From Methyloglobulus morosus KoM1 (GTDB taxonomy: Bacteria; Pseudomonadota; Gammaproteobacteria; Methylococcales; Methylomonadaceae): 39,218 nt of DNA. Below the pieces are notes generated by a model, which did no database searches, was not told the origin of the DNA, and was given only the letters and a program-made list of their open reading frames with translations. Below, one piece after another: positions 21,709 to 26,754 of this stretch; positions within the stretch are counted from its first letter, which is position 1; each line of letters starts with the position of its first letter. The position numbers and the translations under genes are program-made. Location of the stretch: positions 1 through 39,218 of the forward strand of contig NZ_AYLO01000053.1 in the NCBI RefSeq assembly GCF_000496735.2, written 5' to 3'.

Positions 21709-23034
21709 TTATAAAGGATTGAACTGAGCAAAACTCAAAAATTGATGACCGCAATGGGCTGATTCACATAAGGAATTCACCGCAACATTAGCATTTACAC
21801 CAGAAATCAAACCTTCCTTTGAAGTTATTTTTGATTTTTGCAATATCGTATGCGCCTCAGCTACCGTTAGGTCAGGTTTCAACTCTAACAATAGCGCCAC
21901 CACGCCAGACACTTCAGCCGCCGCGATTGAACTGCCTGAGATAAAATCGTAGGTACCGTAAGGCAAAGTGGTCAACACTTTCTCACCCGGAGCCGATATG
22001 GATTCAGCCAAAGAACCGGGGGTTGATGCAGGCTGCTTGATAGACTGTACGGAAATCACATCTTTTAGGGAGGCAGGGAAGTTTTCGCTTGTGTTACCAG
22101 ACCCGGTATCGGCGGCAACGACTATAATGCCTTTTTCCAAGGCTTTTTTGAGCAACAAGGTAAGCAATGGGTCTTGTGGGCCGGTCAGGCTCATGTTAAG
22201 GACATCCACGCCTGCCTTGATGGCTGTATTAACGGCAAGCGCGAGTGTGTAACTATTACAGACGGCTTCCATAGCGTCTACTTTGTCCGGCCAACAGGCT
22301 TTCAGTGCCAACAACTTGGCATCAGGGGCTACCCCCATAATTCCGGTAGAGTTATCTCTCCGGGCTACCATAACACCGGCCACTGCCGTACCATGCTTAT
22401 CCGTCGCAAAACTGGCGGATATGTCTTCCGCAAAATTTTGGTTATTGCTGACTTGCCCTGCCAAATCGGGGTGATTTAAATCTACTCCCGTATCAATCAT
22501 ACCGATGACAATATCCCGACCCGTTGCCTTTCCATGAGCTAAACTAATCTGCATTTGCTGCAAATTAGCCTGAAGCCTAAAGTAAGGGTCGTTGGAACTG
22601 GAGGATTGCGTTTTGGTCTTGAATACGTTCATGCCCTGAACAACTTCGACACGGTCATCCTTGGACAATCGCTCGATGGTAGTTGCCACAGAGGCTTTAT
22701 CGGCAACACGGTACACTACGCAATGTTCACCGACTTCGGTCATGGGCCACTCAGCCAGCTTCTCCAAATCGTAATCGTCTGCAATTTGGTTGGTGATTCG
22801 CTCACTCCAGGTCGAACTTTGGTAACCGCCCCGTTGCCTGTAAGACGTTGGAGATGCCGTGTTTTTGATACTGTTAATCGTGTTGTCAGAAAAAGCCACC
22901 AGCAGCAGCCGATCTGCATTTTGCTGGGATAACATGCTGTTAAGCCCGCTTTCACTGTCGATTGGTGTTTTGCTTTCCGCTGGGACCATAAAAACGGCCA
23001 ACATCAGCAGGCCTGCCATTAGATAAGTTTTCAT
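21709..23034 (-). CDS. Secreted S8-family (subtilisin-like) serine peptidase, divergent active site
   Basis: 441 residues with a signal peptide (1-21), an N-terminal propeptide-like region (about 40-140, ending SKDDRVEVVQGMNVF) and a subtilase domain (about 170-400). The Asp-His-Ser residues are present: Asp181 in MIDTGVDLNHPDL, His214 in KHGTAVAG and Ser369 in SGSSIAAAEVSG. Two departures stand out. The oxyanion-hole position usually filled by Asn reads AADTGSGN, and the usual AAPH after the serine is AAAE. Its ATG abuts the anti-sigma gene stop, with AGGAG inside that gene, so the two are co-translated. This suggests a dedicated role in the sigma/anti-sigma unit rather than bulk proteolysis; that part is inference. 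Confidence 0.85.
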   Translation of the reverse strand: MKTYLMAGLLMLAVFMVPAESKTPIDSESGLNSMLSQQNADRLLLVAFSDNTINSIKNTASPTSYRQRGGYQSSTWSERITNQIADDYDLEKLAEWPMTEVGEHCVVYRVADKASVATTIERLSKDDRVEVVQGMNVFKTKTQSSSSNDPYFRLQANLQQMQISLAHGKATGRDIVIGMIDTGVDLNHPDLAGQVSNNQNFAEDISASFATDKHGTAVAGVMVARRDNSTGIMGVAPDAKLLALKACWPDKVDAMEAVCNSYTLALAVNTAIKAGVDVLNMSLTGPQDPLLTLLLKKALEKGIIVVAADTGSGNTSENFPASLKDVISVQSIKQPASTPGSLAESISAPGEKVLTTLPYGTYDFISGSSIAAAEVSGVVALLLELKPDLTVAEAHTILQKSKITSKEGLISGVNANVAVNSLCESAHCGHQFLSFAQFNPL

Positions 23035-23760
23035 CTATTCCTCCGAATGCATTGATGAAAGCAATGCATAGGCGGGTTCTGCAAAAATAACGTTGCCGTC
23101 TTTCTTTAACAATTCAATAACATCAAAAAGATGTTTGGCCGCAATGTCCTTATCGAGCCTAACTGTATACACACCCTGGGGAGTTGGGCTATTGCTAATG
23201 AATTGCCCATGTATACGCTCAAGAATCGTATTTTTCTGCAGCTGATCGACATTGTCAGCAAAAACCACTCGAATTTCATTCGCGCTTACGGCTTCTTGTT
23301 GCCCGTCAGACAACGTCTTAAAGCTGTTGCCGAGTTGCACATCATTCCCCGCATAACGCGGCATCAGCAGGGTTATAGACAACAGCACGGCTGCCGCCAT
23401 CGCCAACGCAGGATGAGAGATCGCGCTGCTCACCCAACGCTGTTTTCTGCCGTCACTTAATTGTGTGACATTGCCGGAAACCGTGCTTCCTTTTAGATTT
23501 AAGCCCGCTTGCTGGCCTTGAAGGCGCATTTTCAAGCGCGTAAAAGAGGCCTGTTCTGCTGAGTCAAGCGAACCTTCCTGGATCACGGCTTGCGCCAACT
23601 TCTGCAAATGGGCCTGCTCACGTTTACACGTCAGGCAAACGGCTAAATGCGCCTCGACTGCCTTTAACTCACCGCCTTGAAGTGTCTTGTTGACGTACCA
23701 AGGCAATAACTGAGACAGTTCCTGATGGTCAGAGTAAGATTTTGTATAATGCTGTTTCAT
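23035..23760 (-). CDS. Membrane zinc-finger anti-sigma factor with an S8-propeptide-like outer domain
   Basis: 241 residues in three parts. The cytoplasmic N-terminus carries the ZAS/zf-HC2 motif His38-X3-Cys42-X2-Cys45 (HLAVCLTC), typical of proteins that hold ECF sigma factors. One membrane helix follows at about 116-133 (PALAMAAAVLLSITLLM). The extracytoplasmic part (about 161-233) reads NEIRVVF, GVYTVRL, then a helix and DGNVIFAEPAY, closely resembling the propeptide/inhibitor domain of subtilases (fervidolysin-propeptide-like). It sits between the sigma gene (17 bases) and the S8 protease gene (0 bases). I infer that the outer domain binds or is cleaved by the neighbouring protease. Confidence 0.82.
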   Translation of the reverse strand: MKQHYTKSYSDHQELSQLLPWYVNKTLQGGELKAVEAHLAVCLTCKREQAHLQKLAQAVIQEGSLDSAEQASFTRLKMRLQGQQAGLNLKGSTVSGNVTQLSDGRKQRWVSSAISHPALAMAAAVLLSITLLMPRYAGNDVQLGNSFKTLSDGQQEAVSANEIRVVFADNVDQLQKNTILERIHGQFISNSPTPQGVYTVRLDKDIAAKHLFDVIELLKKDGNVIFAEPAYALLSSMHSEE

Positions 23761-23777
23761 CGTAAACTCCTAAACTC

Positions 23778-24407
23778 TCAGTGGGTGCGGTTTGAACTGT
23801 CGTTCGTTGGGGTTAAAATCAATGCCAGATTTTTACGGGCATGGTGCATTCGGGTTTTTACAGTGTTTTCAGGGCAACCCATGATGACAGCGATTTCGCT
23901 GTAATGCAGGCCCTCGTAATAAGTCAGCTCTATCACCGCCCGATGTTCGGGCGACAAGGCACTAAGGGCCGATTCCAGCCATTCATCGAGTTCGAGCTGA
24001 TTCATCCCGGCATCTTGCTTGCCCAGCCATGAACTGTCTTCGTCAAGTTCATCCAGCGACTCTTCTTCGGCCCGGTTGGCATCACGCATAACCTGCCGAG
24101 CCTTGTTAAAGGCGATCCCAAAAATCCAAGTGGACGGTTTGCACTTAGGGTCGTAACTCGCCGCTTTCTCCCAGACGACAAACATGACATCGTTGATGAT
24201 TTCATCAATCAACTCGTCACGACGGGTAATGCGGGCAATAAACCGGAATAATCTTGTGTAATAATGGTGATAGAGCTGTTCAAGTGCGCATTCATCTGCA
24301 TTGCAAAGCCGCGCTATCAAATCGGCATCCCGTAGCTGCTGACCATTTTGATGTGTACTCAACGGTGTACCTGCAAAAGATTGTGTCACTTCGGCTTGAG
24401 CTTTCAT
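23778..24407 (-). CDS. ECF-type RNA polymerase sigma factor
   Basis: 209 residues with region 2 (ALEQLYHHYYTRLFRFIARI, DELIDEIINDVMFVVWEKA) and region 4 (LSPEHRAVIELTYYEGLHYS, IAVIMGCPENTVKTRMHHAR), and no region 1 or 3, which is the extracytoplasmic-function sigma layout. The first 27 residues are a Gln/Thr-rich extension. It is first in the operon with the membrane anti-sigma factor and S8 protease. An inverted repeat (24426-24446) lies just upstream of the start. The ATG has a poor ribosome binding site. Confidence 0.92.
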   Translation of the reverse strand: MKAQAEVTQSFAGTPLSTHQNGQQLRDADLIARLCNADECALEQLYHHYYTRLFRFIARITRRDELIDEIINDVMFVVWEKAASYDPKCKPSTWIFGIAFNKARQVMRDANRAEEESLDELDEDSSWLGKQDAGMNQLELDEWLESALSALSPEHRAVIELTYYEGLHYSEIAVIMGCPENTVKTRMHHARKNLALILTPTNDSSNRTH

Positions 24408-24425
24408 TAAACATAGACCAAATTA

Positions 24426-24446
24426 AATTAACTTTGTACGTTAATT
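24426..24446. promoter_or_regulatory. Operator-like inverted repeat upstream of the ECF sigma gene
   Basis: AATTAAC (24426-24432) and GTTAATT (24440-24446) are perfect 7-bp arms around the spacer TTTGTAC, 18 bases before the sigma start codon. This fits a dimeric repressor site, and the TetR regulator at the other end of the operon is a candidate. The surrounding DNA is very AT-rich, so chance pairing is possible. Confidence 0.35.
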
Positions 24447-24942
24447 CCAAAAAACCAATGAAAGGTTCAATGGATAATTAAAAAAAACTTAAATTTGTTG
24501 AAACCACCCCAAATTTTAGATGAAAAGTGAATTCGATTGGTCAGCCAGAATTAATTTTTTAAAGAAAAAATAATTTAAAAAAACAAACCCTTAATTTGTT
24601 TTTATACGGAAAATAAAAAAAATGGTGTCGAACAAATAAAATTTAAGGAATATCGAATCAGTTGCTTCTTTATGGCTTGGCGCGCGAAGCGACCTCGCAT
24701 TGGTTTTTGAAGAATTCAATGGGCAAATCCTTAGGAATTAAGGAAACCTTGAATAATAAGTTGATGCCATGTGTGGTTCGACATGCCCTCCAGCAACGGT
24801 ATCAACACGATACCGTTCGTCCTGGGCCTATCTAAGGAGGGTAGTGGAAAGACTGGTTAAGAAATCCCTTATATTTAAGACGAATAGGCGAGTTCTATTT
24901 TATTGAACTATTGAACTTCACTTATCAAAAAGCCGGTTAGCA
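24447..24942. other. AT-rich gap without a gene
   Basis: About 500 bases between the ECF sigma gene and the secreted paralogs. The part next to the sigma gene is dominated by A and T runs and presumably carries its promoter. Near the other end, AACGGTATC (24795-24803) and GATACCGTT (24809-24817) form a perfect 9-bp stem with loop AACAC. This is followed by GTTCGTCCTGGGCC, which is like the other GTTCG palindromes of the window. No open frame with a ribosome binding site was seen. Confidence 0.5.
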
Positions 24943-25341
24943 TTACCTTGGCAAACACATTTCGATAACGCCACCTATGCGGGCATGAGTGCCGGCTTTG
25001 CGAATGACCCCCACCGCTTTTTTATTTTTGATGAAGTCCGGTGGAATGGGTGTTGCGCTTGGATTAGCGCTTATAACGTCTGGGTCACTGTCGAAAACAA
25101 AACCAATCGCACCCTTGCTGTCTGTGGCTTTTTCTCCAGACTGGATGGCAGTCTCCCCTGAGTAGACTTTGACATAGTAGCGCCCTTTAAGGCCCGTTCC
25201 ACGCACTAAAATTTTTGAACGGCTGCCGCCATTGAAAACCAGGCATTTAACACCGAGGGATGCGGCGTTAACTTCACCCAATGTACACAGGTTAAACGCC
25301 AAGAACATTAAGGCTATGATTGCTGATTTCTTAAAATTCAT
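24943..25341 (-). CDS. Secreted protein of unknown function (paralog of the next gene)
   Basis: 132 residues with a signal peptide (MNFKKSAIIALMFLAFNLCT to about VNAA). The mature part begins LGVKCLVFNG and continues through KILVRGTGLKGRYYVKVYSG and GFVFDSDPDVI to a C-terminal VIEMCLPR. Two mature-domain cysteines, one near each end, could form a disulfide. It aligns along its whole length with the product of the upstream gene 25374-25853, so the two arose by tandem duplication. The start at ATG 25341 is preferred to the TTG four codons earlier. I do not recognise the family; the beta-rich look suggests a small periplasmic or secreted domain. Confidence 0.65.
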   Translation of the reverse strand: MNFKKSAIIALMFLAFNLCTLGEVNAASLGVKCLVFNGGSRSKILVRGTGLKGRYYVKVYSGETAIQSGEKATDSKGAIGFVFDSDPDVISANPSATPIPPDFIKNKKAVGVIRKAGTHARIGGVIEMCLPR

Positions 25342-25373
25342 GTTTATTCTCAAGGATCAAAGGTAAGCAATTA

Positions 25374-25853
25374 TCATCTAATTATACAATTTGTAGTCAT
25401 ATAACCTTTGATTAGAAGTTTGGTTTTGGCATCACGTATGCTCGCCCTGACAACCCCACCTTGGATAAAAGCAGGATGAATCGCTGTTTTGGCTTCGAGA
25501 ATGACATCTTCAGGGTTGCTGTCGAATTCAAATTGCACTTGGCGGCTGACTGCGGCTTTTGGTCTCGACTTAACTGAGTTCCCACCAGAATCCACTTTTG
25601 CGTAATACTTCCCTTTTGGGAATCCGTAACCCCTGACAGTTACTTTCGAACGCGGAACGCCGCCCCCTCCCACAGGATCGTCCAGCCCCCCTCGTCCACT
25701 GCCTGAACCCGCGCCGTGTGTATCGCCTACCGTAGCAGTTGTACTCCGCAGTTCACACGAAACGTCAATACGCGCAGCATTCGCATCGCCCAAAATACCC
25801 AAATTGAGCAAAATGGTTGCTATTGCCAAAAATGCTGCATTTTTAAAAGCCAT
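25374..25853 (-). CDS. Secreted protein of unknown function with Gly-rich insert (paralog)
   Basis: 159 residues: a signal peptide ending at about DANAA, then IDVSCELRS, a Gly/Ser-rich insert of about 25 residues (HGAGSGSGRGGLDDPVGGGG) absent from its neighbour, and the shared domain KVTVRGYGFPKGKYYAKVDSGG, FEFDSNPEDVI, ending TTNCIIR. The two cysteine positions are the same as in the paralog 32 bases downstream. Co-directional with the ECF sigma operon, and upstream of it on the same strand. No function is assigned. Confidence 0.65.
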   Translation of the reverse strand: MAFKNAAFLAIATILLNLGILGDANAARIDVSCELRSTTATVGDTHGAGSGSGRGGLDDPVGGGGVPRSKVTVRGYGFPKGKYYAKVDSGGNSVKSRPKAAVSRQVQFEFDSNPEDVILEAKTAIHPAFIQGGVVRASIRDAKTKLLIKGYMTTNCIIR

Positions 25854-26001: not shown

Positions 26002-26754
26002 TTAGAATCCCACCGAAATAGAAAATACCACTGTTGCCTTCAAGGTTACTGGATGGTCGGGCGATATATTCCCCCCTAGCTCATCCAGATAATAAATTTC
26101 ACTTGCGTCGTAATAACGTAAATCCAGTGCAATAAACTTATATCGCCCCGTTAGGCCGGCATTCCAATACGGATAATCGGCATCTTGGACATCTTTGACT
26201 CGGGCGTAACCAAATGCGCTAGAAAATTCCAAATAGTCAGTCAACGGGTAGCGTCCGGTCAATTCATAGAAGAACGAATCGCCTTTTAGCCCATAAAAAT
26301 CATTCGAATAGGAGAACTGTGCGCTCAGATAACTCTTGTAATGAAGAAACAGGTAATATTCGCTGTAATCTCCCGGACGTGAAAAAATCAGGTTGTCATA
26401 AATATAGCGGGAATACTGTAAATCCATCCGCCAATCATCGGCAAATTGATAACTCCAGCCAACATAGGGAGTGACTTCAACTTGGGCTGCATTGGGATAA
26501 ATGAGATCTTCTTCTTGTTCATTTCTGCCTATGTCAAAACTAGAGGCACTGGCCCCGACATAAACTCCCGATGAATGTTGGTAATCGAGATTGCCTTGAA
26601 TAGCTGGATTGCCAGCACTTTTGGAGTACATCCTGGAAATATAATTGGTCGTGCCCGTTATCGTCCCGTGAATTTCAGCGAGGGCGAAACCGCTTTGAAA
26701 CAAGAAAACTACCGCGCAAAGCCTATATAATGGGAAAAAGAAAGTTGTCTGCAT
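26002..26754 (-). CDS. Outer-membrane beta-barrel protein, TIGR02001 / TorF-like putative porin
   Basis: 250 residues with a signal peptide ending at about ALAE. The mature part consists of alternating aromatic-rich strands, with GTTNYISRMYSKSAGNPAIQG near the start, then VYVGASASSFD, VTPYVGWSYQF and WNAGLTGRYKFIALDLRYYD. The protein ends ATVVFSISVGF with a terminal Phe, the outer-membrane insertion signal. The opening strand and its spacing match the TIGR02001 family, common in methanotrophs and other gammaproteobacteria. The transported solute is unknown. It is preceded by a 577-base gap. Confidence 0.8.
   Translation of the reverse strand: MQTTFFFPLYRLCAVVFLFQSGFALAEIHGTITGTTNYISRMYSKSAGNPAIQGNLDYQHSSGVYVGASASSFDIGRNEQEEDLIYPNAAQVEVTPYVGWSYQFADDWRMDLQYSRYIYDNLIFSRPGDYSEYYLFLHYKSYLSAQFSYSNDFYGLKGDSFFYELTGRYPLTDYLEFSSAFGYARVKDVQDADYPYWNAGLTGRYKFIALDLRYYDASEIYYLDELGGNISPDHPVTLKATVVFSISVGF

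Follow-up and report, generated by a model that had tools for sequence, protein, structure and literature searches.

What is known of membrane-bound regulators that respond to an enzyme, and how does the locus described here compare with them? In Bacillus subtilis, the outer domain of the anti-sigma factor RsiV is a receptor for lysozyme, and binding of the enzyme gates regulated proteolysis in the RsiV-sigmaV system (PMC4183432). In SREBP signalling, the subtilase S1P (MBTPS1) acts on a membrane-bound regulator, and the ectodomain of a membrane protein, SPRING, displaces the inhibitory prodomain of S1P (PMC11231238). Propeptide folds acting in trans are found in SUB1-ProM, the Pleurotus inhibitor POIA1 and TgMIC5; in SUB1-ProM a helix-capping Glu is kept, and its gene adjoins subtilase genes (PMC6993865). 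Here we describe a three-gene locus in a stretch of 39,218 nucleotides from Methyloglobulus morosus KoM1 (contig NZ_AYLO01000053.1; the window in what follows), which encodes an extracytoplasmic function (ECF) sigma factor, a membrane anti-sigma factor and a subtilase of family S8. We propose that it may form a self-contained envelope-signalling module, in which the partner subtilase would dock on a trans propeptide carried by the anti-sigma factor and so gate sigma release, a reading that we hold to be somewhat likelier right than wrong. The genes are:

23778..24407, minus strand: ECF sigma factor gene, 209 residues (Pfam Sigma70_r2, E 5.4e-10; Sigma70_r4_2, E 2.9e-17)
23035..23760, minus strand: membrane anti-sigma factor gene, 241 residues (zf-HC2 above cut-off; zinc motif)
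21709..23034, minus strand: exported S8 subtilase gene, 441 residues (PF00082, E 4.5e-36; profile match to subtilisins)

The original prediction, made from the letters of the window, had these genes as consecutive, and all three open reading frames (ORFs) lie where it placed them, with the claimed gaps of 17 bases between sigma and anti-sigma factor and of 0 bases between anti-sigma factor and S8 protein. The anti-sigma stop codon is in frame with the ATG of the S8 gene, which GGAGGAA immediately precedes. The sigma factor is an ordinary ECF factor, regions 2 and 4 both being above the Pfam cut-off. Elsewhere in the same genome, on a separate contig (L034), the entire cassette occurs a second time in diverged form, and a gene for the site-2 protease RseP is present as well (TIGR00054 above cut-off). 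Where genes are called NtrC-like, caspase-like, lipoprotein or exported, these names were assigned by eye. The anti-sigma factor is organized as follows:

23626..23721, minus strand: zinc-finger anti-sigma domain, residues 14-45 (PF13490 match)
23350..23424, minus strand: single transmembrane segment, about residues 113-137 (hydropathy)
23038..23298, minus strand: periplasmic S8-propeptide-like domain, residues 155-241 (PF22148 match of residues 160-229, at 23074-23283; predicted fold)

Its zf-HC2 score is marginally over the cut-off (22.8 vs 22.2 bits), and the Hx3Cx2C zinc motif (H38, C42, C45) is unchanged across 35 aligned sequences, the window's included. There is one hydrophobic segment, with 19-residue hydropathy windows starting at residues 113-119. 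The periplasmic domain is, judged by sequence profile and modelled fold, a relative of S8 propeptides; the S8-propeptide pattern originally claimed for it is seen in both. Residues 160-229 match PF22148 (Fervidolysin_NPro-like) with 17.7 bits (E 0.0049) in a search with the whole protein and with 19.9 bits (E 0.00096) for the outer domain alone, slightly below the curated cut-off of 21 bits. Across a chosen set of 81 anti-sigma ectodomains, this family matches 62 at E<=1, with a best E of 2.5e-9, and the next family 5. The same profile also picks out propeptide regions at the N-terminus of ordinary S8 precursors (L203, L206, L207), of which the last has its propeptide stretch '...RPDVIFAEPNF...' directly before the catalytic domain. 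The PF22148-type prodomain of fervidolysin likewise sits in cis at the front of the protease. A further S8 ORF (L211) carries a propeptide-like segment behind its catalytic domain, close to the C-terminus.

The AlphaFold2 model of the ectodomain, made with the 81-sequence alignment, has the order b-a-b-b-a-b and a mean predicted local distance difference test (pLDDT) of 84.8. Foldseek ranked pro-subtilisin E first (E 3.4e-3), and with a second aligner, VIA, the six top rows were all S8 propeptides (PC1/3, subtilisin BPN' and subtilisin E; Z 8.2-7.2), so that the best structural matches of the modelled domain alone appear to be S8 propeptides; families missing from these lists are not thereby excluded. 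With the ectodomain profile, a sequence search of the PDB gave no significant match (best E 0.45). The Glu of the FAEP motif is retained in 75 of the 81 ectodomains and lines up, in our own alignment, as the equivalent of subtilisin Glu69, which caps protease helices in propeptide complexes (PMC6993865). Both this Glu and the sequence profile make a chance fold a weaker explanation of the outer domain.

The claimed linkage of the S8 gene to the sigma/anti-sigma pair is borne out by synteny counts taken from the anti-sigma side, from the S8 side and across the class. Within the family, 44 of 151 genomes have an anti-sigma match; the search gave 53 rows, comprising the window, one gene listed twice, and 51 other genes, 49 of which were read (all except those of G038 and G056). 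The S8 gene is on the same stretch in 46 of these 49 loci, the remainder being L009, L019 (broken anti-sigma) and L035; L001, L002, L032 and L033, as repeats of the window's genome, are omitted from these tallies, and its second cassette is counted once. Seen from the S8 side, in the best 80 of 526 loci, a sample that leans to close relatives, an anti-sigma gene is present in 76 loci and a sigma gene in 69; the anti-sigma factors have the ectodomain at profile level in 73 cases, the other three being diverged, by eye. These loci come from Methylococcales, Nitrosomonas, a Nitrospira-labelled metagenome-assembled genome, Acidobacteria, Dyella, Paraburkholderia, Duganella and others; the module also occurs in a laboratory methanotroph, Methylomonas sp. 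LW13 (L084). Two loci without an anti-sigma gene (L082, L126) are both cut by contig ends, and in L090 the sigma gene stands beyond the S8 gene on the opposite strand. The commonest gene spacing is a 4-base overlap (47/106).

A class-wide draw, made with the domain on an even sample of 276 genomes, gave 27 places in 23 genomes: 21 of anti-sigma type, two lipoprotein-like and four inside S8 ORFs. Of the anti-sigma places, 16 have an adjoining S8 gene, four do not and one is unreadable at a contig edge; among the 16, contig ends truncate L214, L223 and L224, the last of them ahead of its catalytic domain. Five of the 16 S8 proteins are of the window's kind (two of them in the window's own genome), ten are of another kind, with a long N-terminal extension, and one is of a third kind. 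Chance gene order is ruled out by these linkage counts. A tblastn search of plasmids with one anti-sigma sequence gave 0 matches.

Three arrangements met on the way deserve mention in their own right. In L221 (5134-5550) and L222 (2390-2782), two genomes of one family, a stand-alone lipoprotein-like ORF with the propeptide-like domain lies directly upstream of a canonical S8 gene; this ORF is a possible bacterial trans inhibitor. In L225 (2311-4975; G010, of the window's family), the sigma gene and a related anti-sigma gene are followed by a caspase-like gene in the place of the S8 gene. In L035 (2618-4387; G149:C78), an NtrC-like regulator ORF runs in frame into a membrane segment and the propeptide-like domain, which may be either a genuine fusion or a join made in assembly.

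The third protein, the protease, has the following features:

22609..22935, minus strand: its own N-terminal prodomain, about residues 34-142 (fusion model, aligned to pro-Tk-subtilisin)
22492..22494, minus strand: catalytic Asp181 (110/110)
22393..22395, minus strand: catalytic His214 (110/110)
21928..21930, minus strand: catalytic Ser369 (109/110; the remaining one cut by a contig end)
22102..22104, minus strand: Gly311, at the place of the oxyanion-hole Asn (subtilisin Asn155) in the alignment to subtilisins

A signal-like N-terminus is followed by the prodomain and then by the catalytic domain. The window-type proteins were compared as 110 distinct sequences, 14 of 124 having been removed as duplicates. 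Their Asp-His-Ser triad is invariant, which argues that some catalysis is under selection; the picture of a fully active exported enzyme needs care, as the oxyanion-hole Asn is, by alignment, not conserved in this subfamily. Only two of the 110 have Asn at the aligned place. Among S8 proteins of related genomes, where 30 of 39 matches became loci, all 12 module S8s lack it, whereas the GN motif is kept in 14 of 14 readable cases among the 18 others (two of them read by pattern; L134, L135, L161 and L162 unreadable). It is also kept in all ten readable class-wide S8s that are not of the window's type (L212, L213, L215-L222). An Asn occurs somewhere in places 310-313 in 20 of the 110, and a GN pair stands at another point of the loop in 11, among them the window's protein (G313-N314); there Asn314, in the same loop as Gly311, might be a stand-in. 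Since the residues of this loop vary even among close relatives, we go no further than to say that the Asn has ceased to be fixed. Mutants of subtilisin Asn155 are a hundred-fold or more slower, yet not dead, and the window-type S8, to go by its loop, may be catalytically weak.

Two side observations concern the same protein. Cys 105, 247 and 259 are invariant in 110 of 110 sequences, the first lying in the prodomain and the other two in the catalytic domain, which would allow a possible redox link between these domains. A crude lipobox pattern marks 46 of 111 S8s as lipoprotein-like; the window's S8 is not, by eye.

The propeptide-like domain that the S8 protein carries itself was not mentioned in the original prediction, and it bears directly on how the two partners could meet. 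We modelled ectodomain and S8 protein as one fused chain, with serine in place of the stop codon that separates the two in-frame genes; 18 of the 66 alignment rows were paired by the same stop-as-serine reading. The model has a pLDDT of 84.2 and a predicted template modelling score (pTM) of 0.81, and its residues 129-512, which comprise the prodomain of the S8 protein together with its catalytic domain, superpose as a single body on forms of pro-Tk-subtilisin (first row: Z 39, root-mean-square deviation 2.9 over 323 residues). The anti-sigma domain showed no sign of sitting at the canonical propeptide site: this single-chain model puts the S8's own prodomain there. With that place taken in the model, the anti-sigma domain would have to compete with the cis prodomain or bind after maturation. 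At the capping place, by our own pairing of places, the cis prodomain has Gln in 105 of 110 sequences and the trans domain has Glu; control S8s with a readable propeptide are few for this comparison.

How would a module of this kind work? The zinc-finger anti-sigma factor would hold the sigma factor, and its periplasmic end would be a trans-acting, membrane-tethered S8 propeptide with the S8 protein of the next gene as its partner. The S8 protein is predicted to fold with its own cis prodomain; once this has left, the anti-sigma domain would take the same two-helix face and groove, and from the vacated site the anti-sigma factor would read the presence of mature, free subtilase in the periplasm. 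Docking would then determine whether the anti-sigma factor gets cut. Most likely the S8 protein itself would make the site-1 cut near the membrane, probably slowly because its oxyanion hole is altered, and RseP would make the site-2 cut and free the sigma factor, which would switch on its own operon. The signal is perhaps related to the envelope or the outer membrane, in view of a porin neighbour described below. We infer the binding, the competition with the cis prodomain, what makes the site-1 cut, and the nature of the signal. For the S8 protein as an activating site-1 protease we can offer a tentative case, which leaves us rather doubtful; the docking proposal as such is independent of the claim on the oxyanion Asn. 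A wider formulation, which strikes us as plausible if a little short of an even chance, is that bacteria have repeatedly paired an anti-sigma factor bearing a surrogate propeptide with a dedicated subtilase, the anti-sigma factor being the receptor of its own protease, and that in the window's lineage this protease was tuned down, with the conserved oxyanion Asn given up and Gln in its own prodomain, to yield a slow, perhaps single-turnover site-1 protease or a bound gate.

Several observations weigh against the docking proposal. The best Foldseek match has an E of just 3.4e-3 and is followed by a ribosomal protein in the second row; the ferredoxin-like plait is common, unrelated rows stand within one Z unit of the top VIA rows, and the tool itself cautions that Z near 8 may reflect a shared common arrangement only. 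Profile-profile comparison of the ectodomain with the S8's own prodomain was weak (probability 60 and 30%), and 0 of 21 of these prodomains matched PF22148 at E<=1. In the fused model, the S8's own prodomain occupies the propeptide site, and an oxyanion loop changed in the way that the alignment indicates would speak against an efficient site-1 protease. Finally, the linkage has its gaps: L116 is a real exception, an S8 gene without an anti-sigma gene in the 4.8 kb read upstream; L064 has only the last residues of the anti-sigma factor left; in L103, L118, L125 and L128 the anti-sigma gene is further away or in a different order; and ectodomains without an adjoining S8 gene are found in L225-L228 (4/21 of the class draw) and in L009 of the family.

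Does the S8 protein cut, or does it bind? As far as the sequences tell, its invariant triad would favour cutting and its altered oxyanion loop binding. By analogy with RsiV, the S8 protein could mainly bind, its docking or leaving exposing or hiding a site for another protease, such as signal peptidase or a DegS-like enzyme. The loss of the Asn from the aligned place in 108 of 110 sequences, set against the GN of all 14 readable other S8s, is what such a ligand without catalysis would have, and there is precedent in that cleavage of B. subtilis RsiV is triggered by bound, catalytically inactive lysozyme (PMC4183432). Yet the triad of the S8 protein is invariant, the GN pair elsewhere in the loop in 11 of the 110, the window's included, is a possible stand-in, and the S8s that adjoin the same kind of anti-sigma factor in other lineages retain the Asn. 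We consider a non-catalytic ligand unlikely, and judge no differently the related assignment in which the S8 protein is bound as ligand or shield and a different protease does the cutting.

The docking proposal holds that the freed sigma factor acts on its own operon, and here an upstream element is informative:

24441..24469, minus strand: promoter-like element of ECF type, TGAACCTTT-N12-GGAAT, at about 62-66 bases before the ATG of the sigma gene

The pattern TGAAC-N16-GGAA is found in 17 of 65 upstream regions of the S8-side loci and in at most 4 in any of 20 mononucleotide shuffle sets, the regions being partly related. The element precedes the sigma gene in the window's genus and in 7 of 9 Nitrosomonas-type loci, and from its sequence and position it is likely the sigma factor's own, autoregulatory promoter. 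Scans for a regulon found little beyond this promoter: in the own genome there were 5 loose matches vs 2 in the reversed control, and in 8 genomes of the genus 8 strict places in 5 genomes (5 at sigma genes, 3 elsewhere), with 0 in the control. Within the whole window, the core pattern with one mismatch allowed matches no more often than by chance. Small exported-looking proteins lie downstream of pattern matches in L181 (2488-2910), L182 (1621-2199) and L183 (1407-2141); by this placement they are candidate regulon members.

That the sigma factor appears to drive its own operon would also suit a locus concerned with protease control only, in which the anti-sigma domain is a tether and inhibitor that quiets the secreted protease until it exits the cell, and the sigma factor provides feedback on protease supply. 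Stand-alone propeptide-like proteins do inhibit subtilases, as in the case of SUB1-ProM (PMC6993865), and lipoprotein-like versions of the domain adjoin S8 genes in L221 and L222. However, the window-type S8 may be catalytically weak and already has its own prodomain, and inhibition alone would not call for fusion to an anti-sigma factor; this explanation seems to us distinctly unlikely. More improbable still is a coincidental fold with hitch-hiking, that is, a generic ferredoxin-like sensor of ancient propeptide origin that makes no contact with the S8 protein, the gene order serving co-expression alone: the fold is common, there are loci with the ectodomain and without an S8 gene, and the ectodomain is absent from the propeptide site in the fused model, but the capping Glu is retained (75/81) and the linkage extends to several kinds of S8. 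The idea of a simple decoy of an ordinary protease loses weight, since the site holds the S8's own prodomain and the oxyanion loop is altered.

Upstream of the cassette lie the following genes:

26002..26754, minus strand: TorF/Gcw_chp-family porin gene (PF09694, E 2.4e-14)
24943-25353 and 25374-25853, minus strand: two small putatively secreted proteins in the interval between porin and sigma gene (signal-like N-termini by eye; membership uncertain)

The porin gene is the single PF09694 match in the genome. In the best 80 of 526 loci, a porin of the TorF/Gcw_chp type lies within about 5 kb in 45, namely just before the sigma gene in 28, just after the S8 gene in 7 and in another place or orientation in 10; all 10 members of the porin cluster that were tested belong to PF09694. 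The regions upstream of the porin gene showed no enrichment of any promoter pattern (3 at best, compared with up to 4 in shuffles). Between porin and S8 gene, L064 has an ORF that looks similar, by eye, to the small secreted proteins.

Why would such a module matter? The sensor domains of anti-sigma factors are mostly unexplained, and propeptide likeness is a readable clue to one of them, with the protease gene adjoining in most loci and at least 526 relatives of the window's protease in the genome collection. If the S8 protein does dock on the anti-sigma factor, propeptide exchange would be a bacterial signalling switch and a little-explored route by which an exported protease reports to the genome, and what the sigma factor senses would become a directly testable question. 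Pfam 31 was the basis of an earlier survey of anti-sigma domains (PMC7406223), and PF22148 presumably lay outside the model set of that survey. Among the results listed in the literature searches, we found no description of the combination of anti-sigma factor, propeptide and subtilase, which does not establish that it is not in print.

Several known systems share features with the module. The ECF54 group resembles it in having sigma genes near a subtilase gene; unlike the module, it is described as being without an anti-sigma factor (PMC8999054). The DegS/RseP-RseA-sigmaE system has a membrane anti-sigma factor and an envelope signal, and RseP is encoded in the window's genome too, but its site-1 protease is a PDZ trypsin-like enzyme encoded elsewhere. 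The periplasmic part of RseA is not known to be propeptide-like. The N-terminal prodomain of fervidolysin (PF22148) is like the anti-sigma ectodomain in its profile relation. SUB1-ProM, POIA1 and TgMIC5, for all their likeness as propeptide folds in trans, are stand-alone and have no anti-sigma part. The S1P-SPRING pair is eukaryotic, SPRING has a cysteine-rich fold that does not resemble a propeptide, and S1P has its oxyanion residue, N338. The RsiV system differs in that its enzyme is a foreign lysozyme, and the RsiV outer domain is not known to be a propeptide relative. It is nevertheless these two, RsiV-lysozyme and SPRING-S1P, that by analogy appear to be the nearest precedents for the logic of the module. 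If the wider formulation given above is true, bacteria would have an equivalent of S1P-SPRING in which the exchange of propeptides acts as the switch.

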